Shown: piece after piece, positions 16,593 to 38,816 of the stretch | How positions within the stretch are numbered: position 1 is the first letter of the stretch | Layout: the number at the start of each line of letters is the position of its first letter | DNA from: Sphingomonas sp. JC676 | GTDB taxonomy: Bacteria > Pseudomonadota > Alphaproteobacteria > Sphingomonadales > Sphingomonadaceae | DNA: 64,000 bases | NCBI RefSeq assembly: GCF_014489075.1 | Contig: NZ_JACTGR010000001.1 | Span: 806,001-870,000 of the forward strand | Direction of reading: 5' to 3' | The notes under the pieces: generated by a model | Told to the model about the DNA's origin: nothing | What the model saw: only the letters and a program-made list of their open reading frames with translations | The model's database searches: none | Translations under genes and position numbers: made by a program

Positions 16593-17297
16593 TCAGGCCT
16601 CTTGCGTGCTCGCCGCGGTCTGGCCGAACAGCACCGCGCGCTGTTCATCGGTCATCGGGGTGGCATAGGAACGGACCTCGCCGCCCTTCTCGTAGGCGCG
16701 GATCGTCGCGGGGCGCGCGGCTATGCTCTCGAACCAGCGCTTGAGGTTGGGGAAATCGTCGAGATTCTGCTGATGCGCCTCGTGCGGGACGATCCACGGA
16801 TAGCAGGCCATGTCGGCGATCGAGTAATCGCCGGCGATGAAGTCGCGCCCCTCGAGGCGCTTGTTCAGAACGCCGTAGAGCCGGTTGGTCTCATTGACAT
16901 AGCGGTTGATTGCATATTCGATCTTCTCGGGCGCGTAGACGCCGAAATGGCCGTTCTGCCCGGCCATCGGGCCGAGGCCACCCACCTGCCACATCAGCCA
17001 TTGCAGGATCTCGGTGCGCTCGCGCGGCGTCTCGCCGTAGAATTTGCCGGCCTTCAGCGCGAGGTAGATGAGGATCGCGCCGCTTTCGAACACGCTGATC
17101 GGCTCGCCGCCATCGGCGGGCGCGCGATCGATGATCGCGGGCATGCGATTGTTGGGCGAGAACTTCAGGAACTCGGGCTTGAACTGGTCGCCGATGCCGA
17201 TGTTCACCGGATGTATTTCGTAATCGAGCCCGGCTTCTTCGAGGAACAGCGTGATCTTGTGGCCGTTCGGGGTGGGCCAGTAATAGAGCTCGATCAT
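16593..17297 (-). CDS. Glutathione S-transferase (YfcG/nu-class like)
   Basis: The 234-residue protein has an N-terminal thioredoxin-fold domain (MIELYYWPTPNGHKITLFLEE, with the Thr/Asn-type active site of nu-class GSTs, and the PAII strand before FESGAILIYLA) and an all-helical C-terminal domain (WLMWQVGGLGPMAGQ, YSIADMACYPWI). It would use glutathione for disulfide reduction or conjugation in the cytoplasm. GGAG is well placed before the ATG at 17297. It lies between the MFS gene and the acyl-CoA synthetase, all leftward, and may join a detoxification or catabolic unit. Confidence 0.88.
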   Translation of the reverse strand: MIELYYWPTPNGHKITLFLEEAGLDYEIHPVNIGIGDQFKPEFLKFSPNNRMPAIIDRAPADGGEPISVFESGAILIYLALKAGKFYGETPRERTEILQWLMWQVGGLGPMAGQNGHFGVYAPEKIEYAINRYVNETNRLYGVLNKRLEGRDFIAGDYSIADMACYPWIVPHEAHQQNLDDFPNLKRWFESIAARPATIRAYEKGGEVRSYATPMTDEQRAVLFGQTAASTQEA

Positions 17298-20110: not shown

Positions 20111-20225
20111 CCTCTCCCGCTTGCGGGAGAGGGCTGGGGTGAGGGTGAGTCCTGGCCCCGCGTGCGCCGCTGAAGTTTGTACGACACACCCTCACCCCGA
20201 CCCTCTCCCGCAGGCGGGAGAGGGG
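20111..20225. repeat. Inverted-repeat intergenic element, CTCCCGC family
   Basis: Two arms each contain a CTCCCGCTTGCGGGAG-type hairpin plus GGGTGAGGGTG and its complement, in opposite orientation around a central spacer. The right arm runs into GGGGGAAGGAAG, which supplies the ribosome binding site of the next gene. A sister element lies at 63704-63811. Confidence 0.8.
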
Positions 20226-20239
20226 GAAGGAAGAAGAAG

Positions 20240-21471: not shown

Positions 21472-21521
21472 CGAGGATAGGGTATGGAACCGCCAAGTGT
21501 TCCGGCCTTATGGGAGATGAG

Positions 21522-24257
21522 ATGATGATGCGGTTACGCCTTATGTCGGCCTGCGCGGTGCCGGCGATGATCGTGGCGCTCGCAGCGCCCGCCTATGCGC
21601 AGAACAGCCAGACGCAGACGCAAACCAGCGACGATCAGAACGAGGTCACCGACCCCAACGACATCGTCGTCACCGCGCAGGGACGCGCGCAGATATTGTC
21701 AGACGTGCCGCTCGCGATTTCGGCGGTGAGCGCCGAAACGCTGGAGCGCACCGGCGCAACCGATATCCGCCAGCTCAATCAAGTTGCACCTTCGCTGCTC
21801 GTCTCCTCGACCGGCAGCGAGGCCAATGCCTCGGCGCGCATTCGCGGCGTCGGCACGGTGGGCGACAATCCGGGCCTCGAAAGCTCGGTCGCGACCTTCA
21901 TCGACGGCGTCTATCGCTCGCGCACCGGCCTGGGCCTGAACGACCTGGGCGAGATCGAGCGCGTCGAGGTGCTGCGCGGGCCGCAGGGCACGCTGTTCGG
22001 CCGCAACGCATCGGCGGGCCTGCTGAACATCGTCACCAAGCAGCCCCAGTTCGAGTTCGGCGGCATGGCCGAGGCGACCTATGGCAATTACGACTATCTG
22101 CGCTTCCAGGGCGCGGTGACCGGGCCGGTGACCGAGCAGCTCGCGCTGCGCCTCGACGGGCTCTATGCCAAGCGCGACGGCTACTATAAGGACGTCAACA
22201 CCGGGTACGACGTCAACAACCGCGATCGCTACCTGATCCGCGCACAGGCGCTGTACCAGCCGAACGCCGATATCTCGGTGCGGCTGATCGCCGATTACAG
22301 CCACCGCAAGGAGGATTGCTGCGGGGCGGTCTATGCCACCGCCGATGTGTCGCCCGCCAACCGGGGCCTGATCACGCCGACCAGCTCGGTCGCCACCGTG
22401 CTGACCGGCATCACCGGCACGACCTTCGCGCAATATTTCCCGGCGGCGAACGACGGCTATTCGCGCCGCATCGCGGTCTCGCCCAACCGCAGCTATGCGG
22501 GCACGACCAAGGATTACGGCTTTTCGGGCCAGGTCGACTGGAATCTGGGCGGCGTCGACATGACGTCGATCACTGCCTATCGGAAATACACCTCGTACCA
22601 GGCGGCGGACGCGGATTACGGCCTGGCCGATATCCTCTATTTCGGCCCCGACAGCGGCCGCGAGTTCAAGACCTTCAGCCAGGAGCTGCGTTTCCAGGGC
22701 AAGGCGTTCGGCGACCGGCTCGACTGGCTGGTCGGCGGCTATTACGCGCATGAGGATCTGACGACCAAGGCGCAACTCAAGTTCGGATCGCAATATGGCC
22801 GGTTCGCGAGCTGCCGCATCGTCTATGGTTCGTTCAATCCGTTCTATTCGCCGAGCCAGGTCGGCTGCCTCAGCCCGACCGGCGTGGCGTTCCTCAGCAA
22901 TCCGGCGGGTCCGCTGGGCGCGGCGGGCGCGGCGATGGTCGGCGGACTGCAGCGGCTCGACACGGTGCGCGACGTCGGTGACGACACCGCGAACTTCGAT
23001 CAGACCAGCGACAATTTCGCCTTCTTCACGCACAACATCATCCACCTGACCAAGACCATCGATCTGACCCTGGGCCTGCGGTACACCAATGAGACCAAGA
23101 AGCTGGGCGCCGACTTCCGCAACACCAACACGATATGCCCGGCACAACAAGCGGCGCTGCTGCCGTTCATGGGCATTCCGAGCCTGGCGCCGCTTGCCGG
23201 CGGCATCATCACGCTCTCGTGCCAGGGTGGATCGTCCTCGGCGCTCAACGCGCTGACGCTCGACGACGAGCGCAAGGAGGACAGGTTCACGGGCACCGCG
23301 GTGCTCTCGTGGAAGCCGATCGACGACCTGCTGATCTATGGAAGCTATTCGCGCGGCTACAAGGCCGGCGGCTTCAACCTCGATCGCTCGGCGTTCAAGA
23401 ATCCGAGTGCGACCCAGCCGCTGCCGATCTTCCCGATCAGCGCGGCCAATGCCGGCTATTATTCCGACGTGCTCCAGTTCGACGAGGAGACCGTCAACGC
23501 CTATGAGATCGGCGCCAAGTACAGCACGCGCGGCTTCAACCTGAATCTCGCGCTGTTCCGTCAGGAATTCAGCAACTTCCAGCTCAACACGTTCAACGGC
23601 ACCGTCTATCTGGTGCAGAACATCAATGGCTGCGCCGACAATCTCAACGGTGGCGACCGTGACACGAGCGCTGCCACTGGTGCCTGCACCGGCAAGATCA
23701 AGCCGGGCGTGGTCTCCAAGGGTATCGAGATCGAGATGGGGATGACGCCGGTACGCGACATCCACGCCAATTTCGGCATGACCTATGCCGATACGCGCTA
23801 TGCCAACAACCTGGTGGGATCGCGGAGCGGGGCGCCGCTCGATCCCGCGCTGCGGCTTCTGCCCGGCGACAATATGTCGAACGCGCCGCAGTTCGTGGTG
23901 ACCAGCTCGCTTGCGTGGACGCCGTCGATCGGGCGCGGCCTGCGCGGCCTGGCCTATATCGATGCGCGTCTCTCGGACGACTACAACACCGGCTCGGACC
24001 TGTTCCCGCAGAAGGAGCAGGACAGCTTCGTGGTGGTCAACGGCCGCATCGGCATCAGCAGCGAGAACCAGCTCTGGTCGCTCGAAGTCTGGGGCCAGAA
24101 CCTGACCAAGGCGAATTACATGCAAGTCGGGTTCAGCTCGCCGTTCCAGGCGGTGAGCACCACGCCGACGGCGGGCTATCCGGGCGGATCGCAGATATTC
24201 TCCTCCTTTCTGTCCGAGCCGCGGACCTATGGCGTGACACTGCGTTCGCGCTTCTGA
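21522..24257 (+). CDS. TonB-dependent outer-membrane receptor
   Basis: The 911-residue outer-membrane receptor has a signal peptide (RLMSACAVPAMIVALAAPAYA), a TonB-box-like segment DPNDIVVTAQGR, a plug domain at about 60-180 (SDVPLAISAVSAETL, RIRGVGTVGDNPG, EVLRGPQGTLFGRNASAGL) and a 22-strand-type barrel ending in the aromatic TLRSRF. It would import a large or hydrophobic substrate using TonB energy. I take the ATG at 21522 because GGGAG at 21512-21516 is correctly spaced; an ATG at 21510 is in frame. It follows the dehydrogenase pair, suggesting a lipid-like ligand, and ends at a strong terminator. Confidence 0.93.
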   Translation: MMMRLRLMSACAVPAMIVALAAPAYAQNSQTQTQTSDDQNEVTDPNDIVVTAQGRAQILSDVPLAISAVSAETLERTGATDIRQLNQVAPSLLVSSTGSEANASARIRGVGTVGDNPGLESSVATFIDGVYRSRTGLGLNDLGEIERVEVLRGPQGTLFGRNASAGLLNIVTKQPQFEFGGMAEATYGNYDYLRFQGAVTGPVTEQLALRLDGLYAKRDGYYKDVNTGYDVNNRDRYLIRAQALYQPNADISVRLIADYSHRKEDCCGAVYATADVSPANRGLITPTSSVATVLTGITGTTFAQYFPAANDGYSRRIAVSPNRSYAGTTKDYGFSGQVDWNLGGVDMTSITAYRKYTSYQAADADYGLADILYFGPDSGREFKTFSQELRFQGKAFGDRLDWLVGGYYAHEDLTTKAQLKFGSQYGRFASCRIVYGSFNPFYSPSQVGCLSPTGVAFLSNPAGPLGAAGAAMVGGLQRLDTVRDVGDDTANFDQTSDNFAFFTHNIIHLTKTIDLTLGLRYTNETKKLGADFRNTNTICPAQQAALLPFMGIPSLAPLAGGIITLSCQGGSSSALNALTLDDERKEDRFTGTAVLSWKPIDDLLIYGSYSRGYKAGGFNLDRSAFKNPSATQPLPIFPISAANAGYYSDVLQFDEETVNAYEIGAKYSTRGFNLNLALFRQEFSNFQLNTFNGTVYLVQNINGCADNLNGGDRDTSAATGACTGKIKPGVVSKGIEIEMGMTPVRDIHANFGMTYADTRYANNLVGSRSGAPLDPALRLLPGDNMSNAPQFVVTSSLAWTPSIGRGLRGLAYIDARLSDDYNTGSDLFPQKEQDSFVVVNGRIGISSENQLWSLEVWGQNLTKANYMQVGFSSPFQAVSTTPTAGYPGGSQIFSSFLSEPRTYGVTLRSRF

Positions 24258-24788: not shown

Positions 24789-26066
24789 TCAGGCGCCTAG
24801 CACACTATCGTCGAACAGCCCGAACGCGAGCGTGGAGGCATAAAAGGCGACCGCTTTCTCGCGCGGCATCGTGCTCGCCCATTTGCGCATGTCGAAGGCG
24901 GCGTTCTGGAGCGCCATCAATGCCTGGCTGGCGACCAGCGGGTCGATCGGGCGGATCGAGCCTTCCGCGATACCGTCCGAAAGCATGCCCGCGAAGCGGC
25001 GGGCGATGCGGTTCGAGCGGTCGATCATCGTATTACGGACGCGCGGCGGCAAGCCGGAGAGGGCGGTGGTGCGCAGCAGGGGACCGCGCTCGGAGAATTG
25101 CACGTCGAGCAGGGTTGCAATCGTGCTTTCCAGCCGCTCCCAGTGCGAGCCACGATGGCCTTCGGCGAGGCGCTGGGCATCGGCGATGATGTCGAAGCTG
25201 CGCTTGTAGCAGGCGGTGACCAGCTCGTCCTTGGCGTCGAGATGGTGGTAGAAGCTGCCCTTGGTGACATTGAGCTCCGAGGCGATCCGCTGGACCGATG
25301 CACCGCGATAGCCGAGTTCGTTGATCAGCCTCGTGGCAGCCAGCAGAAAGGCGTCGCGGCCGAGCTCCGGCTCCTCATGCTCCAGGTCGAGCAGTTCGGG
25401 CTGCCATTTCTGGCCCGGTCCGGCGATGCCGTGGCGGAACACGTCCATCAGCCTTTGCTCGACGCGGGGATATTCGTCGATCTCGTATCGCGTCAGCCAG
25501 GCGGTGAGCCAGAAAGTGTTTTCGAGCACGACATGCGCGCGCGCGCCGCGCAGGTCGGTTTCGGCGCGGGTGCCCTCGGCGCCCCAGAGGCTGCGCGTCT
25601 TGCGGAAGATGTTGCGCCAGCCGGTGAGCAGCTGGCTCTTCATGGGCTCTTCCATCGCGCGGAGGTCCGAGAGGATGGCGAAGGCCTGTTCCTCGCCGCG
25701 CTGGATGCGGGCGAGGCGTTCCATGTTGATGTTGAGGAAGCGCGCGACGCGCGTTTCGGGCGTCGGTTCGGTCAGCGCCTGGTCTAGCATCTCGTCGAGC
25801 CGCTCGAGCGTCTGCTCGAACGCGGCGGCGGCGAGATCTTCCTTGCGCTTGAAATAATAGGTGACGCTGGTGGTATTGAGCCCGACACGCCGCGCCACAT
25901 CGGCGAAGGTCATGCCCTTCGCGCTCTGTTCGTTGATCGCATCGGCAGCGGCGGACAGGATCGCGTCGCGCTTCGCCTGGAAGCGTTTGGTGCCCTTTTC
26001 GGGCGCACTGGCCTCTGATTCCTGGGCGATTGTCTCCGGCGCATTCATATCATGCAACTTACTCAT
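24789..26066 (-). CDS. Tandem TetR/AcrR-family transcriptional regulator
   Basis: The 425-residue protein contains two complete TetR units. The first helix-turn-helix is at about 45-70 (MTFADVARRVGLNTTSVTYYF) and the second at about 245-270 (ASVQRIASELNVTKGSFYHHL), each followed by a helical ligand/dimerisation region. A single chain therefore carries two DNA-binding heads. It is divergent from the acyl-CoA dehydrogenase operon at 26213 and most likely controls it by responding to an acyl-CoA or related ligand. A palindrome at 26157-26172 is a candidate site. An internal ATG at residue 7 is an alternative start. Confidence 0.9.
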   Translation of the reverse strand: MSKLHDMNAPETIAQESEASAPEKGTKRFQAKRDAILSAAADAINEQSAKGMTFADVARRVGLNTTSVTYYFKRKEDLAAAAFEQTLERLDEMLDQALTEPTPETRVARFLNINMERLARIQRGEEQAFAILSDLRAMEEPMKSQLLTGWRNIFRKTRSLWGAEGTRAETDLRGARAHVVLENTFWLTAWLTRYEIDEYPRVEQRLMDVFRHGIAGPGQKWQPELLDLEHEEPELGRDAFLLAATRLINELGYRGASVQRIASELNVTKGSFYHHLDAKDELVTACYKRSFDIIADAQRLAEGHRGSHWERLESTIATLLDVQFSERGPLLRTTALSGLPPRVRNTMIDRSNRIARRFAGMLSDGIAEGSIRPIDPLVASQALMALQNAAFDMRKWASTMPREKAVAFYASTLAFGLFDDSVLGA

Positions 26067-26156
26067 TTAAGATCGAAGCCAAAATGGTTTTTTGGGACTC
26101 AGGCATGGCGAAGGAACATGGGTGATACTGTGCCCCCGCACATGCCCAATCCCCTT

Positions 26157-26172
26157 TACCGAATATCCGGTA
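26157..26172. promoter_or_regulatory. Candidate operator of the tandem TetR regulator
   Basis: TACCGAATATCCGGTA is a 16-base near-palindrome (perfect arms TACCG and CGGTA) in the middle of the 146-base divergent spacer, 41 bases before the dehydrogenase ATG. Size and position fit a TetR operator; binding is inferred. Confidence 0.55.
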
Positions 26173-26212
26173 CGCTCTAGACCCGGATACGACAGTTAAT
26201 CGGGAGGATGCC

Positions 26213-27496
26213 ATGGACTTCACGCTGACCGAGCGCGAGACCTATTTCCGCGATCGCGTGAAGACATTCATCGACACGCGGATCCGGCCTCGCGGCGCCG
26301 AGTATCGCGCCGAGGCGGATAAAGGCGACCGGTGGAAGGTAAACGGGGTGCTGGAGGAAGTGAAGGCCCAGGCCAAGGCCGAGGGGCTGTGGAATTTCTT
26401 CATGCCGCCGCATTCGGGTCATGCCCATGTCGACGACAGCTTCGCGTTCGAAGGCACCCAGCTCACCAACCTCGAATATGCGCTGTGCGCCGAAGAGATG
26501 GGCCGTGTCGGCTGGGCTTCCGAGGTGTTCAACTGCTCGGCGCCCGATACGGGCAATATGGAAGTGCTGCATCGCTACGGCACCCGCGCGCAGAAGGACC
26601 GCTGGCTCAAGCCGCTGATGGAGGGCGAGATCCGCTCTGCCTTCCTGATGACCGAGCCGGCAGTGGCATCGTCCGACGCAACCAATATCGAGACGCGGAT
26701 CGAGCGTGACGGCGACGACTATGTGATCAACGGCCGCAAATGGTGGTCGTCGGGTACCGGTGATCCGCGCTGTGCGATCGCGATCGTGATGGGCAAGACC
26801 AATCCCGACGCCGCCCGCCATGCCCAGCAGAGCCAGGTCCTGGTACCGCTCGATGCGCCGGGCGTGAAGATCGAGCGGATGCTTTCGGTTTTCGGGTATG
26901 ATCATGCGCCGCACGGGCACGGCGAAGTCCTGCTCGAGAATGTGCGCGTGCCGGCCGAGAATGTCCTGTTGGGGGAAGGACGCGGGTTCGAGATCGCGCA
27001 GGGCCGCCTCGGGCCGGGGCGCATCCACCATTGCATGCGCACCATCGGCGTGGCGGAGGAAGCGATCGAGGCGATGGCCAAGCGGCTCGTCAGCCGCGTC
27101 GCGTTCGGCAAGCGCATCTCGGACCATTCGATCTGGGAGCAGCGGATCGCCCGGGCGCGGATCGACATCGAGATGACCCGGTTATTGTGCCTGAAGGCGG
27201 CCGACATGATGGACAAGGCCGGCAACAAGGCCGCCCAACTCGAGATCGCGATGATCAAGGTACAGGCGCCCACCATGGCGCTGCAAATCATCGACGACGC
27301 GATCCAGGCGCATGGCGGCGCCGGCGTGTCGAGTGACTTTCATCTCGCGCATGACTGGGCCGGCATCCGCACGCTGCGGCTGGCCGACGGGCCGGACGAG
27401 GTGCACAACCGGGCGATCGCACGGGCCGAGTTCGGCAAATATGGGGACTATAAGGCGGATCGGCCGTCCTCGGCGGACCTGGGCGTTTCGCGTTAG
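26213..27496 (+). CDS. ACAD10/11-type acyl-CoA dehydrogenase
   Basis: The 427-residue flavoprotein matches the dehydrogenase half of the animal ACAD10/ACAD11 proteins in recalled signature segments: [18 protein letters not shown] (about 104-121), [44 protein letters not shown] (about 264-277) and [15 protein letters not shown]. In mammals this family, with its linked kinase, breaks down 4-hydroxyacyl-CoAs by phosphorylation and elimination. Here the kinase is a separate gene two positions downstream (28676). It is the first gene of the operon and divergent from the tandem TetR regulator. GGGAGG precedes the ATG. Confidence 0.93.
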
Positions 27497-27498
27497 CC

Positions 27499-27576
27499 GT
27501 GCTCCTGCGGAAGCGGGAGCCCAGGGTAACGGAGCGATGCCCTTGTGACTCTGGGCTCCTGCTTTCGCGGGAGCAC
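27499..27576. repeat. Two-hairpin palindromic intergenic element (GTGCTCC type)
   Basis: Inverted arms GTGCTCCTGCGGAAGCGGGAGC and its near complement enclose a variable centre beginning CCCAGGGT. It lies between co-directional genes. The hairpins are of the GAAAG-type family described at 35407, with different stem bases. Confidence 0.75.
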
Positions 27577-27593
27577 TGGAGGTGGGAGAGAGA

Positions 27594-28679
27594 ATGAAAG
27601 CAGCCGTACTTTTCGAAGCCAGGTCGCCGCTCCAGATCGAGGAGGTTATGGTCTCCAAGCCGGGGCCGCGCGAGGTGCTGATCCGCACCGCTGCGGTGGG
27701 CGTATGCCGCTCCGATCTCCATTTTGTCGATGGCGCCTTCCCGCACCCGGTGCCGACCGTGCCGGGCCACGAGGCGGCGGGGGTGATCGAGGCGGTCGGG
27801 AGCGACGTCGCGCATCTGAAGCCCGGCGATCACGTCATCACCTTCTTCACGGTGTTCTGCGGCAGCTGCGAGATGTGCGTCACCGGGCGGCCTTCCTTGT
27901 GCATCGATCCGTCGACGCGGCGCCCGGCCGATGCCGAGCCGCGGCTGAGCCTCGCGGATGGACGTCCGCTGGCGCCGTTCCTCAACCTTTCCGCCTTTGC
28001 CGAGATGATGCTGGTGCACGAGAATGCGTGCGTGGCGATCTCCAAGGAGATGCCGCTCGATCGGGCGGCTTTGCTCGGCTGCGCCGTGATCACCGGTGCC
28101 GGCGCGGTGTTCAACGACAGCCGGGTGCGGCCGGGTGAGAGCGTCGCGGTTATCGGCGCCGGCGGGATCGGCCTAGCGGCGATCAACGCGGCGAAGATTG
28201 CCGGCGCGGGCGCGATCCTGGCGATCGATCCGATGCCCGAGAAGCGCGAGCTGGCGCTCAAGCTGGGAGCGACGCAAGCGCTCGATCCGAGCTCCGAGAC
28301 GATCGTCAAGGACGTGCTCAAGCTGACCAACGGTGGCGTGCATTATGCGATCGAGGCGGTGGGGCGATCGAACACCGCCGAGCTCGCCTGGAACATCCTG
28401 CGCCGCGGCGGCACCGCGACGATTCTGGGGATGATCGCACCGGGGAACAATGTGAGTCTGCCCGGGCCCACCTTCCTCACAGGCCGGAAGATCCAGGGAT
28501 CGCTGCTGGGTTCGACGCGCTTCCCGATCGACATGCCCCGGCTGGTGCAGATGTATCTCGATGGACTGCTCGATCTCGACACGATGGTGGCCGAGCGGAT
28601 CCGGCTGGAGGACGTCAACGACGCGCTGGAGAAGCTTCGTCAGGGGCATAGCGTGCGTTCAGTGATCGAGTTCGCATGA
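27594..28679 (+). CDS. Zinc-dependent alcohol dehydrogenase (MDR superfamily)
   Basis: The 361-residue medium-chain dehydrogenase would oxidise an alcohol to an aldehyde or ketone with NAD(P)+. It has the catalytic-zinc segment GVCRSDLH and GHEAAG, the structural-zinc cysteines CGSCEMCVTGRPSLC (about 90-104) and the Rossmann motif VIGAGGIGLAAI. The ATG at 27594 starts at MKAAVLFE, typical of the family, with GGGAGAG upstream. Its stop overlaps the start of the kinase gene by four bases, coupling the two. The context points to hydroxy-acid or alcohol catabolism. Confidence 0.92.
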   Translation: MKAAVLFEARSPLQIEEVMVSKPGPREVLIRTAAVGVCRSDLHFVDGAFPHPVPTVPGHEAAGVIEAVGSDVAHLKPGDHVITFFTVFCGSCEMCVTGRPSLCIDPSTRRPADAEPRLSLADGRPLAPFLNLSAFAEMMLVHENACVAISKEMPLDRAALLGCAVITGAGAVFNDSRVRPGESVAVIGAGGIGLAAINAAKIAGAGAILAIDPMPEKRELALKLGATQALDPSSETIVKDVLKLTNGGVHYAIEAVGRSNTAELAWNILRRGGTATILGMIAPGNNVSLPGPTFLTGRKIQGSLLGSTRFPIDMPRLVQMYLDGLLDLDTMVAERIRLEDVNDALEKLRQGHSVRSVIEFA

Positions 28680-29692
28680 GCGACCTGGATGAAGTGCGGC
28701 TGGGCGATTGGCTTGGCGCAACCGTCACCGGGTTCGAGGGGCCGTTCACGGTCGAGAAGTTCGCGGGTGGGCAGAGCAATCCGACCTATCGGATCGACGC
28801 GGCGAGCGGCTCTTACGTGCTGCGGCGCAAGCCGTTCGGGCCGATCCTGCCTTCGGCGCACGCGGTGGAGCGCGAATATCAGCTCATCGCCGCTCTGCAT
28901 CCCACGGGCTTTCCGGTTGCCCGGCCTTATGGGCTCTGCGAGGATGCGGAGGTGCTCGGCGCGCCCTTCTACATCATGGAGATGGTCGAGGGGCGGACCT
29001 TGTGGGATGGCTCCCTGCCGGGGATGACGGCAGAGCAGCGGACCGCGCATTACGAGGCGATTGTCGACACGCTGGCAGCCCTGCACTCGATCGACGTCGA
29101 GGCGGTGGGGCTGGGTGATTACGGCAAGCCGGGCAATTATTTCGAGCGGCAGGTGGCGCGCTGGTCGAAACAATACCGGATGAGCCAGACCGACGATTTG
29201 CCCGAGATGGAGCGGCTGATCGAATGGCTGCCGCGCACCGTGCCAGAGCAGACGCGCACCAGCATCGTCCATGGCGATTTCCGGATCGACAACATGATCT
29301 TCCATCCCAGCGAGCCGCGCATCCTTGCTGTGCTCGACTGGGAGCTGTCGACGCTCGGCGATCCGCTGGCGGACTTTTCCTATTTCCTGATGAGCTGGGT
29401 GACGCAGCCCGAGGGGCGTTCGGGCGTGAAGGGGCTGACCGGGCAGCACACCGGCATTCCGACCATAGAGGATGTGGTTGTGCGCTACTGCGCGGCGACG
29501 AAGCGGGACGGGGTGCCCGATCTCAACTGGTATTTCGCGTATAATCTCTTCCGGCTCGCCGGCATCGTCCAAGGGATCAAGAAGCGGATTATCGACGGCA
29601 ATGCCTCGAGCGCACAGGCCGCGGCGACGGTCGAGCGGATGCCCGGGCTGGTCGCTTCCGCCTGGCATTTTGCGGAGGAGGCCGGCGCGTGA
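28676..29692 (+). CDS. ACAD11-type phosphotransferase (hydroxyacyl-CoA kinase candidate)
   Basis: The 338-residue protein has the aminoglycoside-phosphotransferase fold and closely resembles the N-terminal half of ACAD10/11: GGQSNPTYRI, YVLRRKPFGPILPSAH, FYIMEMVEGR, catalytic VHGDFRIDNMIFH (His199, Asp201, Asn205) and metal-binding LDWELSTLGDPLAD (Asp221). LvaA of Pseudomonas levulinate catabolism is a related bacterial member. It probably phosphorylates the hydroxyl of a hydroxyacyl-CoA for the dehydrogenase encoded at 26213. It is coupled to the alcohol dehydrogenase by ATGA. The substrate is inferred, not seen. Confidence 0.9.
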   Translation: MSDLDEVRLGDWLGATVTGFEGPFTVEKFAGGQSNPTYRIDAASGSYVLRRKPFGPILPSAHAVEREYQLIAALHPTGFPVARPYGLCEDAEVLGAPFYIMEMVEGRTLWDGSLPGMTAEQRTAHYEAIVDTLAALHSIDVEAVGLGDYGKPGNYFERQVARWSKQYRMSQTDDLPEMERLIEWLPRTVPEQTRTSIVHGDFRIDNMIFHPSEPRILAVLDWELSTLGDPLADFSYFLMSWVTQPEGRSGVKGLTGQHTGIPTIEDVVVRYCAATKRDGVPDLNWYFAYNLFRLAGIVQGIKKRIIDGNASSAQAAATVERMPGLVASAWHFAEEAGA

Positions 29693-29708
29693 ATGAATTC
29701 TCCCCGTC

Positions 29709-29793
29709 CGTTCGCCCTGAGCTTGTCGAGGGGCGGCTGCCCGGCAGCGGAGGGCCTGTGGCGGAGCGTGCTTCGACAAGCTCAGCACGAACG
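29709..29793. repeat. Inverted-repeat intergenic element, CTGAGCTTGTCGA family
   Basis: CGCCCTGAGCTTGTCGAGG at the left and GCTTCGACAAGCTCAGCAC at the right form inverted arms around a GC-rich centre. This is a third repeat family, different from the GAAAG and CTCCCGC hairpins. It sits between the kinase gene and the first SDR gene. Confidence 0.8.
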
Positions 29794-29809
29794 ATAGAGG
29801 AATGAAACG

Positions 29810-30574
29810 ATGAGCTTGTTCGACCTGACCGACAAGGTAGCCATCGTCACCGGGTCCACGCGCGGGATCGGGCGCGCGGCGGCCGAGGCGCTGGCGGAGC
29901 ATGGCGCGAAGGTCGCCATTTCCAGCCGCAAGCAGGATGCGTGCGACGAGGCCGCGGGCGAAATCAACGCGCGCTTCGGCGACGGCACGGCGATCGCGAT
30001 CGCGGCGAGCATCTCGGACAAGGCGGCGCTCCAGAATTTGGTGGATCAGACGCGGCGCGCATTCGGTCGGATCGACGTGCTGGTCTGCAACGCGGCGTCC
30101 AATCCCTGTTACGGGCCGCTCGAGGACATTGCCGACGAGCAGTTCCGCAAGATCCTCGACAACAATATCGTCTCCAACCACTGGCTGATCCAGATGGTGG
30201 CGCCAGAGATGCGGGCGCGGTGCGAGGGATCGATCATCATCATATCGTCGATCGGCGGCCTGCGCGGATCGCCGGTGATCGGTGCGTACAATGTCTCCAA
30301 GGCGGCGGATTTCCAGCTGGCGCGCAACTATGCGGTCGAGTTCGGGCCGGACAATGTGCGGGTCAATTGCATCGCGCCGGGGCTGATCAAGACCGATTTC
30401 GCCCGCGCTTTGTGGGAGGATCCCGAGCGGATCAAGGCGACCAATTCGACCACGCCGCTCCGCCGGATCGGTGAGCCGGAGGAGATTGCCGGCGCGGTGG
30501 TGTATCTGGCGAGCAGGGCCAGTGCCTTCATGACGGGACAGGCGATGGTGATCGACGGCGGAGTGACGATCTGA
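29810..30574 (+). CDS. SDR-family oxidoreductase 1
   Basis: The 254-residue short-chain dehydrogenase has the cofactor motif GSTRGIG (about 15), NAAS after beta-strand 4, catalytic Ser in IIISSIGG and YNVSKAAD with Tyr/Lys (about 158-162), and the C-terminal MVIDGG. It would interconvert a hydroxyl and a keto group, perhaps on the acyl-CoA processed by the upstream enzymes. It shares its final bases with the start of the next SDR gene. GGAATGAAACG precedes the ATG. Confidence 0.92.
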
Positions 30575-31374
30575 TGCGGTTTTCGGGAAAGGTAGCGATC
30601 GTCACCGGCGCGGGTTCGGGCATCGGCCGGGCGACCGCCCGGGCATTCGCGGCGGAGGGCGCGCAGGTGGTCGCCGCCGATGTGAGCGAGGCCGTGCACG
30701 AGACGGTCGCAGGGCTCGGCATCGCGGCGATAGACAGCACCGTCGCGGTGCAGATGGACGCGGGCGACGAAGGCGATGTCGAGCGGCTGGTGGCGACCGC
30801 CTGCGAGCGGTTCGGCGGGCTCGATATCTTCTACGCCAATGCGGGGATTTCGGGAGGCGCCGAGGGCATTTTCGATTCCTCGGTCGAGCTGTGGACCGAG
30901 GTGCTTCGGGTCAATTTGATCGGGCCCTTCCTGGCGATCAAGCATGGCGCGCCGAAGATCGTCGATCGCGGCGGCGGCGCGATCGTCTGCACCGCGAGCG
31001 TTGCCGGGCTGCGATCGGGCGCGGGCGGGGCGGCCTATTCGGCGAGCAAGGCGGGCGTGATCAACCTGGTGCAGACCGCGGCGCAGCAGCTCTCCACCTC
31101 GAACGTGCGGGTCAATGCGATCTGCCCGGGGCTGATCGAGACCGGCATGACCCAGCGCGCGTTCGATTATGCGCGCGAACGGGGCAAGGAGGACAAGCTC
31201 GGCCAGCTCAATCCCTTGCGCCGCGCCGGCGTGCCCGACGAGATCGCACGCGTGGCGCTGTTCCTCGCCAGCGACGAGGCGAGCTATGTCAACGGCCAGG
31301 CCTGGGTCGTGGATGGCGGGCTTTCGTCGAGCCATCCGGTGACGCGACAGGAATTCGGCAAGCCTGCCTTCTAG
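30574..31374 (+). CDS. SDR-family oxidoreductase 2
   Basis: The 266-residue short-chain dehydrogenase has [10 protein letters not shown] (about 11), an Asp (AADVS) at the end of strand 2 favouring NAD(H), YANAGISGG, Ser in CTASVAG and YSASKAG with Tyr/Lys, and C-terminal [11 protein letters not shown]. Its ATG overlaps the upstream SDR stop by one base, so the two are coupled. It is the last gene of the ACAD11-type operon before a 51-base gap. Confidence 0.92.
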
Positions 31375-31425: not shown

Positions 31426-32139
31426 ATGAAGCTGTTGTCGAAGTTGCTGCCGATTGCGTTGCTTTCGGTGCCGGTCGAGGCGTTCGCACAGGATTATGCG
31501 TCGGCCGAGATCGTCGTCACGGCATCGCGGCGCGAGTCGCGCGATTTCGTCGATACGCGGCCGGTGGTGGGGCTGCGCCGCGCCGCCGACTTCGCGATCG
31601 TCAGCGTGACCATCGCGGGCGACACCCGCGACCAGGCCAAGCGCCGGAGCGAGATTTTCGACATGGTGAAGGGCGCGATCGGCATCGCGCCCAAATATGG
31701 CGTCGATCTGGCGACGGGGAACGAGGTGGTCGAGCCGCTGACGCTCGACAATTATCGCAACCTGGGCCTTACGAACGACAACCGCCCCGATACCGATCGC
31801 ACGAGTTTCCTGGTGAAGGTACACCTCGGCTCGGGTGTAGACGGCGTCACCGCGCGCGATCGGATCAACAAGTTCATTAAGGCGGTGCCAGTGGTGGGGC
31901 GCGCCGAGATCCGCGGCTCCTCCGACGACCTGACGCTCTCGATCGTCGGCCCGGACAAGTTTCGCGGCGAGATCCTCGATATCGTGACCGGAGACGCAAA
32001 GAGCGTCGCCGCGCGGCTGGGGCCGGACTATGGCGTCGAGATCAAGGGGCTCGACCGACCGGTCGAATGGACCCGTGCCGGGCTGACCGACGTGTTTCTC
32101 TACGTGCCGTATAATATGGTGGTTCGTCCAAAGAACTGA
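31426..32139 (+). CDS. Periplasmic protein, possibly SIMPL-like
   Basis: The 237-residue protein has a signal peptide (MKLLSKLLPIALLSVPVEAFA, then QDYAS) followed at once by EIVVTASRRE, the sequence usually seen at the plug start of TonB-dependent receptors, but it has no barrel. The rest has alternating beta and helical segments (FAIVSVTIAGDTRDQAKRR; GDAKSVAARLGPDYGVEIKGL) reminiscent of SIMPL/DUF541 domains. I cannot name a function. It precedes a TonB-type gene and has GGGGGAG before the ATG. Confidence 0.7.
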   Translation: MKLLSKLLPIALLSVPVEAFAQDYASAEIVVTASRRESRDFVDTRPVVGLRRAADFAIVSVTIAGDTRDQAKRRSEIFDMVKGAIGIAPKYGVDLATGNEVVEPLTLDNYRNLGLTNDNRPDTDRTSFLVKVHLGSGVDGVTARDRINKFIKAVPVVGRAEIRGSSDDLTLSIVGPDKFRGEILDIVTGDAKSVAARLGPDYGVEIKGLDRPVEWTRAGLTDVFLYVPYNMVVRPKN

Positions 32140-33375: not shown

Positions 33376-34272
33376 TCAGCCTTTGACCCGGATCAACCCC
33401 TCCTGCGCGGCGCTGGCCACCAGCCGCCCGTTGCGGGAATAGATGCGGCCGCGGTTGAAGCCCCGCGCATGGCCCGACCAGGGGCTGTCGGTGGTGTAGA
33501 GCAGCCATTCGTCGAAGCGGAACGGCTCGTGCAGCCACACTGCATGATCGAGGCTCGCGGTCTGGATATTGCCCTGCATCCAGCTCACGCCGTGCGGCAG
33601 CATGCACGTGCCGAGCAACGTCATGTCGGTGGCATAAACGAGCATCGCGCGGTGGAGCGCGGGATCGTCGGGCAGGGGCGCCGCGACCTTGAACCAGCTG
33701 TGCTGGACGGACTCGGTCGGCTCGGGGCGGAACCAGTTGCGGGGAGAGACCGGACGGATCTCGATCGGGCGGGCGCGCAGGAAGAAGCGACGGAGCTTTT
33801 CGGGCACCTGCTCCTGGATCTCGTCGCGCAGCTCGCGCTCGGAGCGCAGCGCTTCGGGAGGCGGCACGTCGGGCATCGATTCCTGATGGTGCAGCCCCTC
33901 GGCAGGCAGCTGGAACGAGGCCGTCATGTTGAGGATCGGCTGACCTTTCTGCATCGCGATCACGCGGCGATTGGCGAAGCTGCGCCCTTCGAAATCGCGG
34001 ACGACGCGGTAGATGATGGGGTGGTTCTCGTCGCCCGCGCGCATGAAATAAGCATGGAGCGAGTGGGCGGCCTTGCCGTCATCGACCGAGCGCTGGGCGG
34101 CCTGGAGTGCCTGACCGATCACCTGACCGCCGAACACGCGGCCGACGCCGCCGGGCTGGCGCGGGCCGCGATAGAGATCGGTGTCGATCTCCTCGACGTC
34201 GAGCAGCGTGATGAGCTGCTCGACAAGGCCCTCAGGCGTCGTGGCGCGTTGGGATTCTTCGTCTGACATCAA
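33376..34272 (-). CDS. tesB: Acyl-CoA thioesterase II
   Basis: The 298-residue double hot-dog thioesterase hydrolyses medium- to long-chain acyl-CoA to free acid and CoA. It contains RVFGGQVIGQALQAAQRSV (about 45-63), HSLHAYFMRAGDENHPIIYRV, FANRRVIAMQKGQPI, and the C-terminal MQGNIQTASLDHAVWLHEPFRFDEWLLY with the conserved Asp. The ATG overlaps the upstream dehydrogenase stop by four bases. It ends the leftward esterase-FadB-dehydrogenase operon. An ATG one codon in is equally possible. Confidence 0.95.
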   Translation of the reverse strand: MMSDEESQRATTPEGLVEQLITLLDVEEIDTDLYRGPRQPGGVGRVFGGQVIGQALQAAQRSVDDGKAAHSLHAYFMRAGDENHPIIYRVVRDFEGRSFANRRVIAMQKGQPILNMTASFQLPAEGLHHQESMPDVPPPEALRSERELRDEIQEQVPEKLRRFFLRARPIEIRPVSPRNWFRPEPTESVQHSWFKVAAPLPDDPALHRAMLVYATDMTLLGTCMLPHGVSWMQGNIQTASLDHAVWLHEPFRFDEWLLYTTDSPWSGHARGFNRGRIYSRNGRLVASAAQEGLIRVKG

Positions 34273-35393
34273 TAACCTGCAGCTTCGGCCAGCGCATTGG
34301 CGTGGAAATTGGTGTCGCCGAACAATTCGGCCAGGACGCGGGCGCGCTTCATGAAGAAGCCGATATCATATTCGTCGGTCATGCCGATGCCCCCATGCAT
34401 CTGGATTCCCTCCTGCACCGCGAGCGTGGTGGCGAGGCCGGTCATCGCTTTGGCGACTGCGACGGCCTCTGTCGCGTCCTGGCCGGCGTCGAGGAGCTGC
34501 TGCGCCTTGAGGACGGCGGCGCGGGCGACCTCCAGCTCGGAATAGAGGTGCGCGGCGCGGTGCTGGAGCGCCTGGAACGAGCCGATCGGCACCCCGAACT
34601 GCTTGCGATCCTTGAGATAATTCACCGTCATCGCCATTGCGCCGCCGCCGACGCCGAGCAATTCGGCCGAGGCGCCGGTGCGGGCGGCGCGGAGCAGGCG
34701 GGAGAGGGGATCGGAGCCGGCATCGACCTCGCCGACGACCGTATCGGAGTTTACGCTTACGTTGTCGAAAGTAGCGCGGGAGGCGATGCTGGAGTCGGCC
34801 AGGCGCTGGGGATCGAGGGTCAGACCCGCGGATTTCGGATCGATCGCAAAAAGGGTGATTCCCGAACTGTCCGTTGTGGAGCCCGAAGTTCGCGCGGTTA
34901 CCAGGATGAGATCGGCGGTGTGGGCGTGTTGGACGAACTGCTTGGTGCCGGACAGGCGGAAGCCGTTGCCCGAACGCTCCGCCTTGAGCGCCACGGCATC
35001 TGTGAACTTCGGCGTCTCGTCCGTCGCGACCGCGATCACCGTCTCGCCGGCGAGGATGCCGGGGAACCAGCGCGCGGCATGGGCGGTGCCCTTGAGCGCC
35101 TCGACCGCGGCGACGGCAGTGGTGAGGAAGGGGGAGGGACTGAGATTCCTGCCGATTTCCTCGAGCACGACGCCCGCTTCGACATGGCCGAGGCCCAGGC
35201 CGCCATCGCCTTCCGGGATCAGGATGCCGGTGAGGCCGAGCTCGGCGAACTGCTTCCACAGGTCGCGGCTGAAACCGGTCGGATCCTTTTGATCGCGAAG
35301 TTGGCGCAGCTGGCTGACCGGCGCGTGCTCGGCGATGAAATCGCGGGCGGTTTCCTGGAGCAGGGTCTGGTCGTCGGTTAGGTAGAGGGGCAT
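34269..35393 (-). CDS. Acyl-CoA dehydrogenase, small subunit-like
   Basis: The 374-residue flavoprotein-superfamily member begins MPLYLTDDQTLLQETARDFI. It contains ILIPEGDGGLGLGHVEAG, VPIGSFQALQHRAAHLYSE (about 270) and QMHGGIGMTDEYDIGFFMKR. It resembles the product of 20240-21307, and its genomic partner (35489-36670) resembles the partner of that gene (18884-20104). The repetition suggests two paralogous heteromeric dehydrogenases. It is translationally coupled to tesB and separated from its partner by a palindromic repeat. Confidence 0.92.
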   Translation of the reverse strand: MPLYLTDDQTLLQETARDFIAEHAPVSQLRQLRDQKDPTGFSRDLWKQFAELGLTGILIPEGDGGLGLGHVEAGVVLEEIGRNLSPSPFLTTAVAAVEALKGTAHAARWFPGILAGETVIAVATDETPKFTDAVALKAERSGNGFRLSGTKQFVQHAHTADLILVTARTSGSTTDSSGITLFAIDPKSAGLTLDPQRLADSSIASRATFDNVSVNSDTVVGEVDAGSDPLSRLLRAARTGASAELLGVGGGAMAMTVNYLKDRKQFGVPIGSFQALQHRAAHLYSELEVARAAVLKAQQLLDAGQDATEAVAVAKAMTGLATTLAVQEGIQMHGGIGMTDEYDIGFFMKRARVLAELFGDTNFHANALAEAAGY

Positions 35394-35406
35394 TTTTCTC
35401 TCTTTT

Positions 35407-35487
35407 CGTCATCCCGGCGAAAGCCGGGATCCAGGGCCCGGAGTGCGCCGCTTGTGGCTCTGGATCCCGGCTTTCGCCGGGATGACG
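35407..35487. repeat. Two-hairpin palindromic intergenic element
   Basis: Each arm contains CCCGGCGAAAGCCGGG or its complement, forming a hairpin with a GAAA-type loop. The arms are inverted, flanked by CGTCAT/ATGACG, and enclose a centre with CCAGGGC. It lies between two co-directional dehydrogenase genes. Confidence 0.88.
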
Positions 35488-35488
35488 A

Positions 35489-36670
35489 TTATGAGGGCAA
35501 ATCCAGGATACGCTTGGCGATGATGTTGAGCTGGATCTCGGAGGTGCCGCCTTCGATCGAATTGGCCTTGGTGCGCAGCCAGGCCCTCGGCTTGGCACCG
35601 CCCTGCGACGCAGTGCTCTCCCATTCGAGCGCATCGGAGCCGCCCGCGGCCATGACCAGCTCGTGGCGCGCCTTGTTCAGCTCGGTGCCGTAATATTTCA
35701 TCATGCTCGGCTGGGCGGGGTGCGCGCGACCGGCCTTGAGCTCGTCGATGAAGCGCTCGGACATTGCGGCGAAGGCGCGGGCGCGAACTTCGAAGACCGC
35801 AATGTTCGCCCGGAGTAGCGGATCGGCGAGGCGCCCTTGCGCGTCGCGGCCGATCGCGGCGAGAGCATCCTCGACCAGCACATTGCCGCCGCCACCGCCC
35901 AGGCCCATGCCCGAGATCATCTCGCGCTCATGGCCGAGCAGATATTTGGCGACGTCCCAGCCCTTGTTGAGTTCGCCGAGCAAATTCGCCTTGGGCACCT
36001 TCACATTGTCGAAAAAGGTCTCGCAGAACGGCGAATAGCCCGAGATCAGCAGGATCGGCTTGGTCGAGACGCCTTCGCTGGCCATGTCGAACAGCAGGAA
36101 GCTGATGCCGCCCTGCTTGGTGCTCTTGTCGGTGCGGACGAGGCAGAAGATCCAGTCGGCCTGGTCGGCATAGCTGGTCCAGACCTTCTGGCCGTTGACG
36201 AGGAAGTGATCGCCTTTGTCTTCCGCCGAGGTTTGCAGGCCGGCGAGATCAGAGCCGGCATTGGGCTCGGAATAGCCCTGGCACCAGCGGATCTCGCCGC
36301 GGGCGATCTTCGGGAGATGTTCGAGCTTCTGTTCCTCGGTGCCGTATTTGAGCAATGCCGGTCCGAGCATCGAGATGCCGAAGCTGTTGAGCGGATTGCG
36401 GCACTGGAGGCGGGCCATCTCCTCGCGCAGGATCTTGGTCTCGGCCGGGCTGAGGCCGCCGCCGCCATAGGCTCTCGGCCAATCGGGGACGGTCCAGCCG
36501 CGCGCGCCCATGCGGTCCATCCAGACTTTCTGGTCGGGGTGCGCGTAGACGGGGTTGCGGCCGCCCCAGGTGGCGTCCTTCTCGCCGCGTGCGGGCGTGC
36601 GCATCGCGGGTGGGCAGTTTTCCTCCAGCCAGGCGCGGGTTTCGAGGCGGAATTGGGTGAGGTCTTCCAT
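35489..36670 (-). CDS. Acyl-CoA dehydrogenase, large subunit-like
   Basis: The 393-residue enzyme has FRLETRAWLEENCPPA, WCQGYSEPNAGSDLAGL (about 140), VNGQKVWTSYADQAD, SPFCETFFDNVKVPKAN, LGHEREMISGMGLGGG and the C-terminal SIEGGTSEIQLNIIAKRIL. It resembles the product of 18884-20104 over most of its length. The C-terminal motif again has Gly at the position of the medium-chain enzyme's catalytic Glu. It belongs to the leftward operon, between the FadB-like gene and the small dehydrogenase, with a repeat on each side. Confidence 0.93.
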   Translation of the reverse strand: MEDLTQFRLETRAWLEENCPPAMRTPARGEKDATWGGRNPVYAHPDQKVWMDRMGARGWTVPDWPRAYGGGGLSPAETKILREEMARLQCRNPLNSFGISMLGPALLKYGTEEQKLEHLPKIARGEIRWCQGYSEPNAGSDLAGLQTSAEDKGDHFLVNGQKVWTSYADQADWIFCLVRTDKSTKQGGISFLLFDMASEGVSTKPILLISGYSPFCETFFDNVKVPKANLLGELNKGWDVAKYLLGHEREMISGMGLGGGGGNVLVEDALAAIGRDAQGRLADPLLRANIAVFEVRARAFAAMSERFIDELKAGRAHPAQPSMMKYYGTELNKARHELVMAAGGSDALEWESTASQGGAKPRAWLRTKANSIEGGTSEIQLNIIAKRILDLPS

Positions 36671-36681
36671 AGCTCTTCATC

Positions 36682-36763
36682 CGTCATCCCGGCGAAAGCC
36701 GGGATCCAGAGTCACAAAGTGCGCCGCCCGTGACCCTGGGCCCCGGCTTTCGCCGGGGTGACG
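36682..36763. repeat. Two-hairpin palindromic intergenic element
   Basis: Left arm CCCGGCGAAAGCCGGG, right arm CCCCGGCTTTCGCCGGGG, flanked by CGTCAT and GTGACG. The right stem has an extra G-C pair relative to the copy at 35407. It lies between the FadB-like gene and the large dehydrogenase gene. Confidence 0.88.
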
Positions 36764-36788
36764 AAAGGGTGCAGGCGGCGCGGGTGGG

Positions 36789-38816
36789 TCACTTGTTGAA
36801 CTTCTCGCCCTTCTCCGCCTTTTCACGGAGCAGGGGCGCGACCTCGAAGCCGTGCTTCTCGAGGCCGGCGACGATCTTCTTGAGGCCTTCGGTGTCGGCC
36901 CAGAACATCGGGCCGCCGCGATAGACTGGCCAGCCATAGCCATAGATCCACACCACATCGATGTCGGACGCGCGCTGGGCCATGCCCTCGGCGAGGATCA
37001 GCGCACCTTCGTTGACCATCGGATAGAGGGTGCGTTCGACGATCTCCTCATCGGTGACCTCGTGCTGCGCCGCGCCGGTCTTCTTGCGGAAATCCTCGAT
37101 GATCTCGGCGACGCGCGGGCTGTTCGACGGGTTCCGTTTCTCGTCATAGTCGTAGAAGCCCTTGCTGGTCTTCTGGCCCCAACGACCCTCGGCGGCGAGG
37201 GCGTCGCGGATATTCTCGATGCGGGTCGGGTCGCGATGCCAGCCGATATCGACGCCGGCGAGATCGCTCATCTGGAACGGCCCCATCGGCATACCGAACG
37301 CGACATGGACGCGATCGATCTGCTCTGGCGTGGCGCCTTCCATGAGGAGCTTCATCGCCTCGACCTGGCGCGGCATCAGCATGCGGTTGCCGATAAAGCC
37401 GTAACAGACGCCCGCGACCACGGCGACTTTCTTGATCTTCTTCGAGACCGCCATGGCGGTGGCGAGCACGTCGTCGGCGGTCTTGGCGCCGCGGACGATC
37501 TCGAGCAGCTTCATGACATTGGCCGGCGAGAAGAAGTGCAGGCCGAGCACGTCCTGCGGCCGCGAGGTGCTCGCCGCGATCTCGTCGATGTTGAGGTAGC
37601 TGGTGTTGGAGGCAAGGATCGCGCCGGGCTTGGCGATCTTGTCGAGCCGGCCGAACACCTCCTTCTTGACGTCCATGCTCTCATAGACCGCTTCGATGAT
37701 CAGGTCGCATTCGGCGAGATCGTCGAAGTTGAGCGTCGGCTTGAGCAGCCCCATCGCGCCCTCGACCTGCTCGGCGGTCATCCGGCCCTTGGCGGCGGTC
37801 GCCTCGTAATTCTTGCGGATCGTGCCGGTGCCGCGATCGAGCGCTTCCTGCGCCATCTCGACGATGGTGACCGGGACGCCGGCCGAGAGGAAGTTCATCG
37901 AGATGCCGCCGCCCATCGTACCGGCGCCGATCACGCCGACGCGCTTGATGTCGCGCAGCTTGATGTCCTCGGGGATGCCGTCGATCTTCGATGCCTTGCG
38001 CTCGGCGAAGAAGATGTGGCGCAGCGCCGCCGACTGGGTGCCCATGATGAGCTTCATGAAGCCCATCCGCTCCTGCTGGACGCCCTCGGCATAGGGGGTG
38101 CCGGCGGTCTTCTCGATCAGGTCGATGATCGTCGCGGGCGCCTCGAAGCCGCGGAAGCGCTTGGCGTTGGTCTTGCGGAAAGTCTCGAACACCGCCGGAT
38201 CGACGGTGACCGGACGCTCGCTGGAGCGCGAGACCGGCTTGCCGATGACTTCGTTGGCGAAGGCGACCGCATCGGCGAGCAGGCTGTTCTCGCCGGCGAG
38301 GCGATCGACCAGCCCGGCCTGCTGGGCCTGGGCGGCGGAGACGGGATCGCCCTTGGCGGCGAGCTCGAGCGCGAACTCGACCCCAGCGACGCGCGGCAGG
38401 CGCTGGGTGCCGCCCGCGCCGGGCAGGATGCCGAGCTTCACCTCGGGCAGTCCGAACTTCGCCGAGGGGACGGCGATGCGATAATGGCTGGCCAGCGCGA
38501 CTTCGCAGCCGCCGCCGAGCGCGGTGCCGTGGACCGCGGCGATCACCGGCTTATCGAGCGCCTCGATCGCATCGACCAGCACCGGGAGCGACGGCTCCTG
38601 CATCGGCTTGCCGAATTCGGTGATGTCGGCACCCGCAAAGAAGGTCTTGCCGGCGCAGGTGATGACGACCGCCTTGATGCTCGCGTCGTTCCTGGCTTCC
38701 TCGATCCCGGCCTGGAGGCCCTGGCGGACCGCGGCGCCGAGCGCGTTCACCGGCGGATTGTCCGAGGTGAGGATCAGGACGTCGCCCTGGCGGCTGGTGG
38801 TGATGGGTCCGGTCAT
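36789..38816 (-). CDS. Bifunctional enoyl-CoA hydratase / 3-hydroxyacyl-CoA dehydrogenase (FadB/FadJ-like)
   Basis: The 675-residue beta-oxidation enzyme hydrates enoyl-CoA and oxidises the resulting 3-hydroxyacyl-CoA. The N-terminal crotonase domain (1-190) has [14 protein letters not shown], the oxyanion-hole segment [11 protein letters not shown] and [20 protein letters not shown]. The dehydrogenase domain starts near 290 with [20 protein letters not shown] and continues with [29 protein letters not shown] and two C-terminal helical domains. It is co-directional with the two dehydrogenase genes and tesB. The usual thiolase partner (fadA) is absent from the window. Confidence 0.94.

Follow-up and report, generated by a model that had tools for sequence, protein, structure and literature searches.

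The window analysed here, a stretch of 64,000 nucleotides from the 4.87 Mb genome of Sphingomonas sp. JC676 (34 contigs), carries a run of five genes on one strand that begins with an acyl-coenzyme A (acyl-CoA) dehydrogenase (ACAD) resembling the animal proteins ACAD10 and ACAD11. A kinase matching the kinase domain of the same animal proteins stands third in the run, and a divergent regulator gene lies upstream. The genes, with the sites that matter within them, are:

24789..26066, − strand: tandem regulator, two TetR domains in one 425-residue chain, divergent from the ACAD gene (two TetR_N stretches)
26155..26179, + strand: predicted operator TTTACCGAATATCCGGTACGCTCTA in the ACAD promoter region (conserved across loci with the regulator)
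26213..27496, + strand: ACAD10/11-type acyl-CoA dehydrogenase, 427 residues (PDB scores, tree)
26519..26521, + strand: Ser103 codon of the ACAD, aligned to human ACAD11 Pro463
27002..27040, + strand: equivalents of mouse ACAD11 R626, R631, H634 and R637 (residues 265, 270, 273 and 276 of the window protein)
27386..27388, + strand: catalytic Asp codon (D392 of the window protein, D753 of mouse ACAD11)
27582..28679, + strand: zinc-dependent medium-chain alcohol dehydrogenase (ADH), 365 residues, GTG start (ADH_N and ADH_zinc_N domains)
28676..29692, + strand: APH-fold kinase matching the ACAD10/11 kinase domain, 338 residues (PDB scores, tree)
29267..29293, + strand: kinase catalytic loop VHGDFRIDN (equivalents of ACAD11 D220 and N225)
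29810..30574, + strand: short-chain dehydrogenase/reductase 1 (SDR1), 254 residues (domain scan; closest solved relatives named DHRS4)
30574..31374, + strand: SDR2, 266 residues (domain scan)

Judged from gene spacing, the packing from the ACAD gene through ADH, kinase and SDR1 to SDR2 is operon-like. The 3' end of the ADH gene overlaps the kinase start by 4 bp, and the two SDR genes share one base; such overlaps are a usual sign of co-translation. No further gene fits among the five. The first-pass annotation had placed the ACAD and the kinase here, with a zinc ADH between them and two SDRs after, and had quoted four protein strings; the open reading frames (ORFs), their arrangement and all four strings were confirmed in the translations.

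In a search of the PDB, the ACAD matched mouse ACAD11 with 447 bits (E 4.5e-133), human ACAD11 with 437 bits and entry 4hr3 with 419 bits, compared with 144 bits for the best ordinary ACAD. Identity was 55.6% to the ACAD domain of mouse ACAD11 and 55% to 4hr3. The nearest relatives among the matches listed were two metagenome proteins (95–96%), followed by Sphingomonas proteins (91%). Within the genome, the other three matches to the ACAD query at E ≤ 1e-20 scored 129 bits or less, and the window protein is the only ACAD10/11-type ACAD found there. A tree of 38 rows without LvaC united 33 ACAD10/11-type rows, mouse and human ACAD11 among them, in one clade with support of 100/99, outside of which fell five ordinary ACADs of the same genome on long branches.

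According to the accessible text of PMC12440821, R626, H634, R637 and D753 of mouse ACAD11 are required for the phosphorylated substrate, while R631 is general to ACADs. Equivalents of R626, R631, H634 and R637, with H634 and R637 belonging to the HCMR motif and R626 lying upstream of it, were present in all 125 distinct ACAD10/11-type sequences from the fetched loci (the window sequence counting once), and the D753 equivalent was Asp in 125 of 125. With four repeated sequences included (the own genome met twice and three genomes reached by two routes), the count was 129/129. Three ordinary ACADs of the genome keep the R631 equivalent and none of the three phosphate contacts, and they have Glu at the base position that corresponds to D753. 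In one Sphingomonas and one Phenylobacterium locus (L046:4234-6796 and L062:75-1313), the main copy has additional ACAD10/11-type copies next to it, 50–54% identical.

The kinase matched PDB entry 3dxp with 384 bits and 51% identity and the ACAD11 kinase domain with 263–267 bits, at 42% identity to the mouse domain. Its sole match in the genome at E ≤ 1e-5 is itself, although the genome nonetheless has four APH-family stretches. In a tree of 55 rows, a set without unrelated APH proteins, the window kinase belonged to a 39-row clade with ACAD11 and 3dxp (support 100/99). Residue counts drew on 122 distinct matches, 23 of them cut before the catalytic loop: the loop His, Asp and Asn were kept in all 99 that reach it, the Asp and Asn (ACAD11 D220 and N225) being D201 and N206 in the window. 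The Arg beside the αC Glu is R66, with the Arg-Glu pair in 122/122, and the Arg176 equivalent is R158, present in all 102 uncut matches. Because the published R86 comes out as 84 by hand count on the PDB chain, the pairing of R66 with the αC Arg rests on the description in the paper.

Scores of 447 against 144 bits for the ACAD and of 384 and 267 bits for the kinase lie far beyond chance and bear out the earlier proposal that the ACAD10/11 halves are encoded here in separate genes. The phylogenetic check suggested with it placed both proteins in ACAD10/11 clades, with catalytic residues kept, rather than among unrelated clades.

A second bacterial kinase class, with PDB entry 9o56 and kinases of another Sphingomonadales family, fell outside the 39-row clade. 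It was seen in loci L130, L131, L133–L139, L161, L162 and L165, and its genomes or loci, which belong to other phyla as well as to other Sphingomonadales families, also contain ACAD10/11-type ACADs. In the Pseudoalteromonas locus (L165:9139-9843), a histidine phosphatase gene follows the kinase; a kinase followed by a histidine phosphatase has likewise been reported for Pseudomonas citronellolis, in a cluster without LvaB.

Both genes are widespread in Sphingomonadales: the ACAD10/11-type ACAD was found in 244 of 296 genomes (E ≤ 1e-90) and the kinase in 222 of 296 (E ≤ 1e-60). Linkage was compared in the 127 genomes among the matches listed for both genes, all from the own family, Sphingomonadaceae. 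In 120 of them the kinase followed the ACAD on its 3' side, within 6 kb and in the same orientation; the gap between the genes measured 0.9–2.0 kb in 119 of the 120 and less than 300 bp in one. The intervening gene was checked in 40 genomes, 36 collinear and four from the seven exceptions. It was a zinc ADH in all 36, and in three of the four rearranged genomes an ADH stood beside the ACAD or the kinase. A set of 80 named loci (13 cut, 67 uncut) reaches beyond the family and shows looser linkage: 51 of the 67 have the kinase downstream of the ACAD.

For 20 named loci without a near kinase, 15 genomes were searched, and all 15 carry one elsewhere; when 13 Sphingomonadales genomes, picked for lacking a kinase at 1e-60, were searched at 1e-8, a kinase turned up in 11, in most cases one of the second class. 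Combined, 26 of these 28 genomes, chosen for having no linked or strong kinase, have a kinase at E ≤ 1e-8. The remaining two are a genome 97% complete with 6% contamination in 800 contigs and one that is 85% complete.

For a more distant comparison, twelve plasmid loci were read. Both genes were present in ten, from four phyla, always as separate genes and in both orders: the ACAD comes first in seven, some with intervening genes, and the kinase in two, while in a Croceicoccus locus the kinase lies ~11 kb off within a fuller beta-oxidation cluster. In two of the twelve, no kinase was seen within 6 kb of the ACAD. The window order, ACAD first and kinase second, does reverse that of the animal fusion, as the first-pass annotation had pointed out, but with both orders among the plasmid loci this inversion is ordinary.

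The ADH retains the catalytic Cys-His-Glu-Cys set and four structural Cys, and all eight zinc-ligand positions were kept in 38 of 39 ADHs, the other being cut. Since the Pseudomonas putida SDR LvaD converts levulinyl-CoA to 4-hydroxyvaleryl-CoA (PMC6692424 and PMC9399607, as far as their accessible text describes it), the ADH is by analogy most likely a third pathway enzyme, interconverting 4-oxo- and 4-hydroxyacyl groups. SDR1 was found downstream of the ACAD in 29 of the 67 uncut named loci, and SDR2 was present in 33. They share 68% (SDR1) and 63% (SDR2) identity with their Croceicoccus counterparts, and none of the other SDRs compared from the plasmid loci exceeded ~39% to either. SDRs were thus rejected as a universal partner and, because only the Croceicoccus counterparts matched well, are not claimed as part of the core.

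Upstream of the ACAD gene, an alignment of the window with 20 loci revealed a conserved block. Scoring of 109 loci for TACCG-N6-CGGTA, with at most one mismatch and within 150 bp of the ACAD start, returned the motif in 42 of 47 loci with a tandem-TetR match and in 0 of 62 without one. It was present in 39 of 44 regulator loci once repeated genomes were removed, and in 20 of the 24 distinct regulator loci that had not been used for motif discovery. The five misses were L022, L029, L073, L084 and L099, and the tandem-TetR matches of L029, L073 and L084 are distant ones only (40–45%). The 4.87 Mb genome contains one perfect TTTACCG-N6-CGGTA. One-mismatch sites (11 genome-wide, compared with 18 for a reversed-pattern control) are no more frequent than in the control, and therefore no wider regulon is claimed.

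Among 43 sequences picked by TTTACCGAA, the right-half GGTA never varied, nor did the base two places beyond it or a TA farther along; the remaining right-half positions were variable. Both helix-turn-helix parts of the regulator were conserved in 20 aligned rows and are unlike each other (27% identity over 56 residues). Most aligned homologs begin near the Met at 26036. AlphaFold2 modelled the entire tandem protein confidently, with a predicted local distance difference test (pLDDT) score of 87.6 and a predicted template modelling (pTM) score of 0.86. Across relatives, then, a one-chain regulator with two unlike TetR domains is paired with a slightly asymmetric conserved operator; one tandem chain may read one asymmetric operator. 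A literature search on tandem TetR proteins returned mostly unrelated work and nothing usable.

Taken together, the locus is best read as a predicted, regulated entry module for 4-hydroxyacyl-CoA. The ACAD and the kinase would be the ACAD10/11 halves in separate genes, the kinase phosphorylating a 4-hydroxyacyl-CoA and the ACAD eliminating the phosphate to give 2-enoyl-CoA, a reading to which we assign a probability of roughly 0.75. What the sequence itself shows is membership in the clades, the catalytic and phosphate-contact residues, a single copy of each gene type found in the genome, and operon-like packing. The chemistry follows that of tested relatives, as given in the available parts of PMC12440821 and PMC11342911. 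The kinase, via Asp201, would move a phosphate from ATP onto the 4-hydroxyl of 4-hydroxyacyl-CoA. The ACAD, with flavin adenine dinucleotide (FAD), Asp392 and the Arg265/His273/Arg276 cluster, would then carry out a redox-neutral elimination, in which a proton is removed, a hydride passes to FAD, phosphate is expelled and the hydride is returned, and the resulting 2-enoyl-CoA would enter beta-oxidation. With less support, the zinc ADH could add the third step, taking over the job of LvaD in Pseudomonas, and the tandem TetR could bind the operator at 26155-26179 and keep the operon repressed until released by an acyl-CoA.

Several observations weigh against this interpretation. Human ACAD11 Pro463 is presented in the accessible text of PMC11342911 as a conserved ACAD10/11 mark that widens the pocket, and the window ACAD has Ser103 in its place. 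Among the 125 distinct sequences the position holds Ser in 112, Pro in seven, Ala in four and another residue in two; with Ser for Pro463 in most of them, the acyl pocket of the window protein may differ from that of ACAD10/11. The kinase is not collinear with the ACAD in seven of the 127 genomes among the matches listed, and 16 of the 67 uncut named loci lack this kinase type within 5.5 kb downstream, so the linkage is not obligatory; where a named locus has a downstream kinase (51 cases), the ADH stands between the two in just 28. ADH and SDRs match broad families only; of the listed NCBIfam models, a general SDR subfamily is the sole one to reach its cut-off. Neither an acyl-CoA ligase nor a gene the size of the 12-kDa LvaB of P. 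putida is found among the five operon genes (26213-31374), and the sole AMP-binding protein among the scanned window ORFs (15023-16648) lies ~10 kb off. A search of the literature found no biochemistry on this protein pair. The earlier suggestion of a complete route from an alcohol or 4-hydroxy acid is accordingly unsupported, given that the operon holds no CoA ligase and that sequence does not tell which substrates the ADH and SDRs use.

The surroundings of the operon hold further genes of acyl-CoA metabolism and a receptor:

18884-20104 and 20177-21307: second ACAD pair, upstream of the operon (domain scan)
21510-24257: TonB receptor, upstream of the operon (domain scan)
33376..38816, − strand: beta-oxidation block facing the operon (domain scans), with the following members
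33376-34272, − strand: TesB thioesterase
34269-35393 and 35489-36670, − strand: two ACADs
36789-38816, − strand: enoyl-CoA hydratase/3-hydroxyacyl-CoA dehydrogenase

Relatives of the upstream ACAD pair and the TonB receptor also lie upstream in the close Sphingomonas loci L006–L008. The two ACADs of the beta-oxidation block both occur near the ACAD10/11 gene in 28 of the 56 named loci longer than 15 kb, downstream in 12 and upstream in 16. The ORF directly after the SDRs (31426-32139) matches neither Pfam nor NCBIfam models. An inverted repeat with 32-nt arms (27499-27576), set between the ACAD and ADH genes, is a member of an interspersed palindromic repeat with further copies near 38881 and 52246; its half-site has 49 matches in the genome and the reversed pattern 0. 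Promoter and terminator scans gave nothing above shuffles.

These neighbours bear on the rival idea that the same phosphorylate-and-eliminate chemistry acts on a hydroxyacyl-CoA of another kind, for instance a cyclic or branched one rather than that of a simple 4-hydroxy fatty acid, the genes being part of a dedicated catabolic cluster that includes a TonB receptor of its own. An ACAD pair, a TesB thioesterase and a TonB receptor are indeed frequent neighbours, the best NCBIfam models for the neighbouring ACAD pair are pimeloyl-CoA dehydrogenase subunits, albeit far below cut-off, and the Ser at the Pro463 position could mark a different pocket. However, the phosphate-contact residues, placed for a 4-phospho group, are all invariant, and in some fetched flanks, those of Caulobacter and Bradyrhizobium loci among them, the ACAD or the ACAD–kinase pair has no such neighbours, which leaves this idea quite doubtful. 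A more serious contender, though still an unlikely one, treats the zinc ADH as a passenger or as a housekeeping enzyme that shares the promoter and not the pathway. Its broad family, from which no substrate can be read, would allow this, as would its absence from beside the pair in some Sphingomonas (such as L010, L018, L041) and Bradyrhizobium loci; against it stand the place of the ADH between the pair in all 36 collinear genomes fetched, its link to the ACAD or kinase in three of four rearranged ones, and the retained zinc ligands.

The two other explanations are far less probable. Generic Pfam and NCBIfam names (ACAD domains, APH) are all that speaks for an ordinary ACAD beside an unrelated small-molecule kinase of the antibiotic type, which the bit-score gap, the trees and the site residues make very improbable; the antibiotic kinase itself was rejected on the tree with ACAD11 and on the resistance models listed, which score at most 31 bits against cut-offs of 205 and more. 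An origin of the two genes by secondary splitting of an animal-type fusion is extremely improbable: the domains are the same two as in ACAD11, but the genes are separate in all ten two-gene plasmid loci, across four phyla and in both orders, and ACAD11 is placed among bacterial rows in the ACAD tree, although its exact position is weakly supported.

Returning to the 4-hydroxyacyl-CoA module, the ACAD10 kinase part gave ~4-fold more product from R- than from S-4-hydroxyhexanoyl-CoA, according to the available portion of PMC11342911, and because of this preference for the R form a stereo-inverting ADH/SDR couple would be of plausible interest. A fuller, speculative and rather improbable model is a three-enzyme machine, in which the ADH would act as a 4-oxo/4-hydroxyacyl shuttle that admits keto acids, the ADH and an SDR of opposite stereospecificity would turn S-4-hydroxy compounds into the R form preferred by the kinase, and the tandem TetR, a covalent pseudo-dimer whose two DNA-reading halves differ, would switch the operon on via one asymmetric operator.

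Overall, a 4-hydroxy-acid pathway whose mammalian enzymes were identified in 2024–2025 would have a very common counterpart in Sphingomonadales, an environmental bacterial order, and this sphingomonad counterpart brings a frequent third gene and its own regulator. The genes being single-copy here, they offer a tractable setting for the elimination mechanism, for the pocket difference that Ser for Pro463 may cause, and for the handling of wrong-handed 4-hydroxy acids.

Compared with known systems, animal ACAD11 is homologous to both window proteins and shares their phosphate-contact and catalytic residues (references for animal ACAD10 and ACAD11 are the accessible parts of PMC12440821 and PMC11342911, with PDB entries 8v3u, 8v3v and 2wbi). 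The animal proteins are one chain, whereas the window has two ORFs in reverse order with an ADH between; human ACAD11 has Pro463 where the window ACAD has Ser, and ACAD10 has a HAD domain that the window pair lacks. Entry 3dxp, named a putative acyl-CoA dehydrogenase, is by sequence a kinase, like that of the window.

The P. putida lva operon (LvaA–G) was compared by published description, using the available text of PMC6692424 and PMC9399607. Like the window operon, it encodes kinase and ACAD as distinct proteins of a single operon that also has one or more oxidoreductase genes. It differs in using the SDR LvaD as 4-oxoacyl-CoA reductase, whereas the window has a zinc ADH between the pair and the ACAD first; in encoding LvaB, which is required together with LvaA (PMC6692424), and the CoA ligase LvaE, neither of which has a counterpart in the window operon; and in its sigma54-type regulator LvaR, in place of which the window has the tandem TetR. 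The "LvaA-type" label that the pair had received is loose, because LvaA is only 29% identical to the ACAD10/11 kinase domains (PMC11342911, in its accessible part); the window kinase is ACAD11-type, at 42%.

Bacteria with the kinase and the ACAD on separate genes have been described before. LvaA and LvaC were described as separate genes in a 2017 study (via PMC6692424), and homologs of lvaABCD have been reported in Alpha-, Beta- and Gammaproteobacteria (PMC6692424, citing Rand et al. 2017). Separate ACAD10-like kinase and ACAD proteins of Burkholderia, likened to the window pair by description only, can stand in for either domain of ACAD10 in vitro (PMC11342911). No description of the ADH-centred unit and its regulator was found in the open-access literature, where only mammalian and Pseudomonas papers were relevant. 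Set beside the animal fusion, the lva operon and the Burkholderia orthologs, the ADH-centred organisation with its own regulator thus seems to be an unreported variant.

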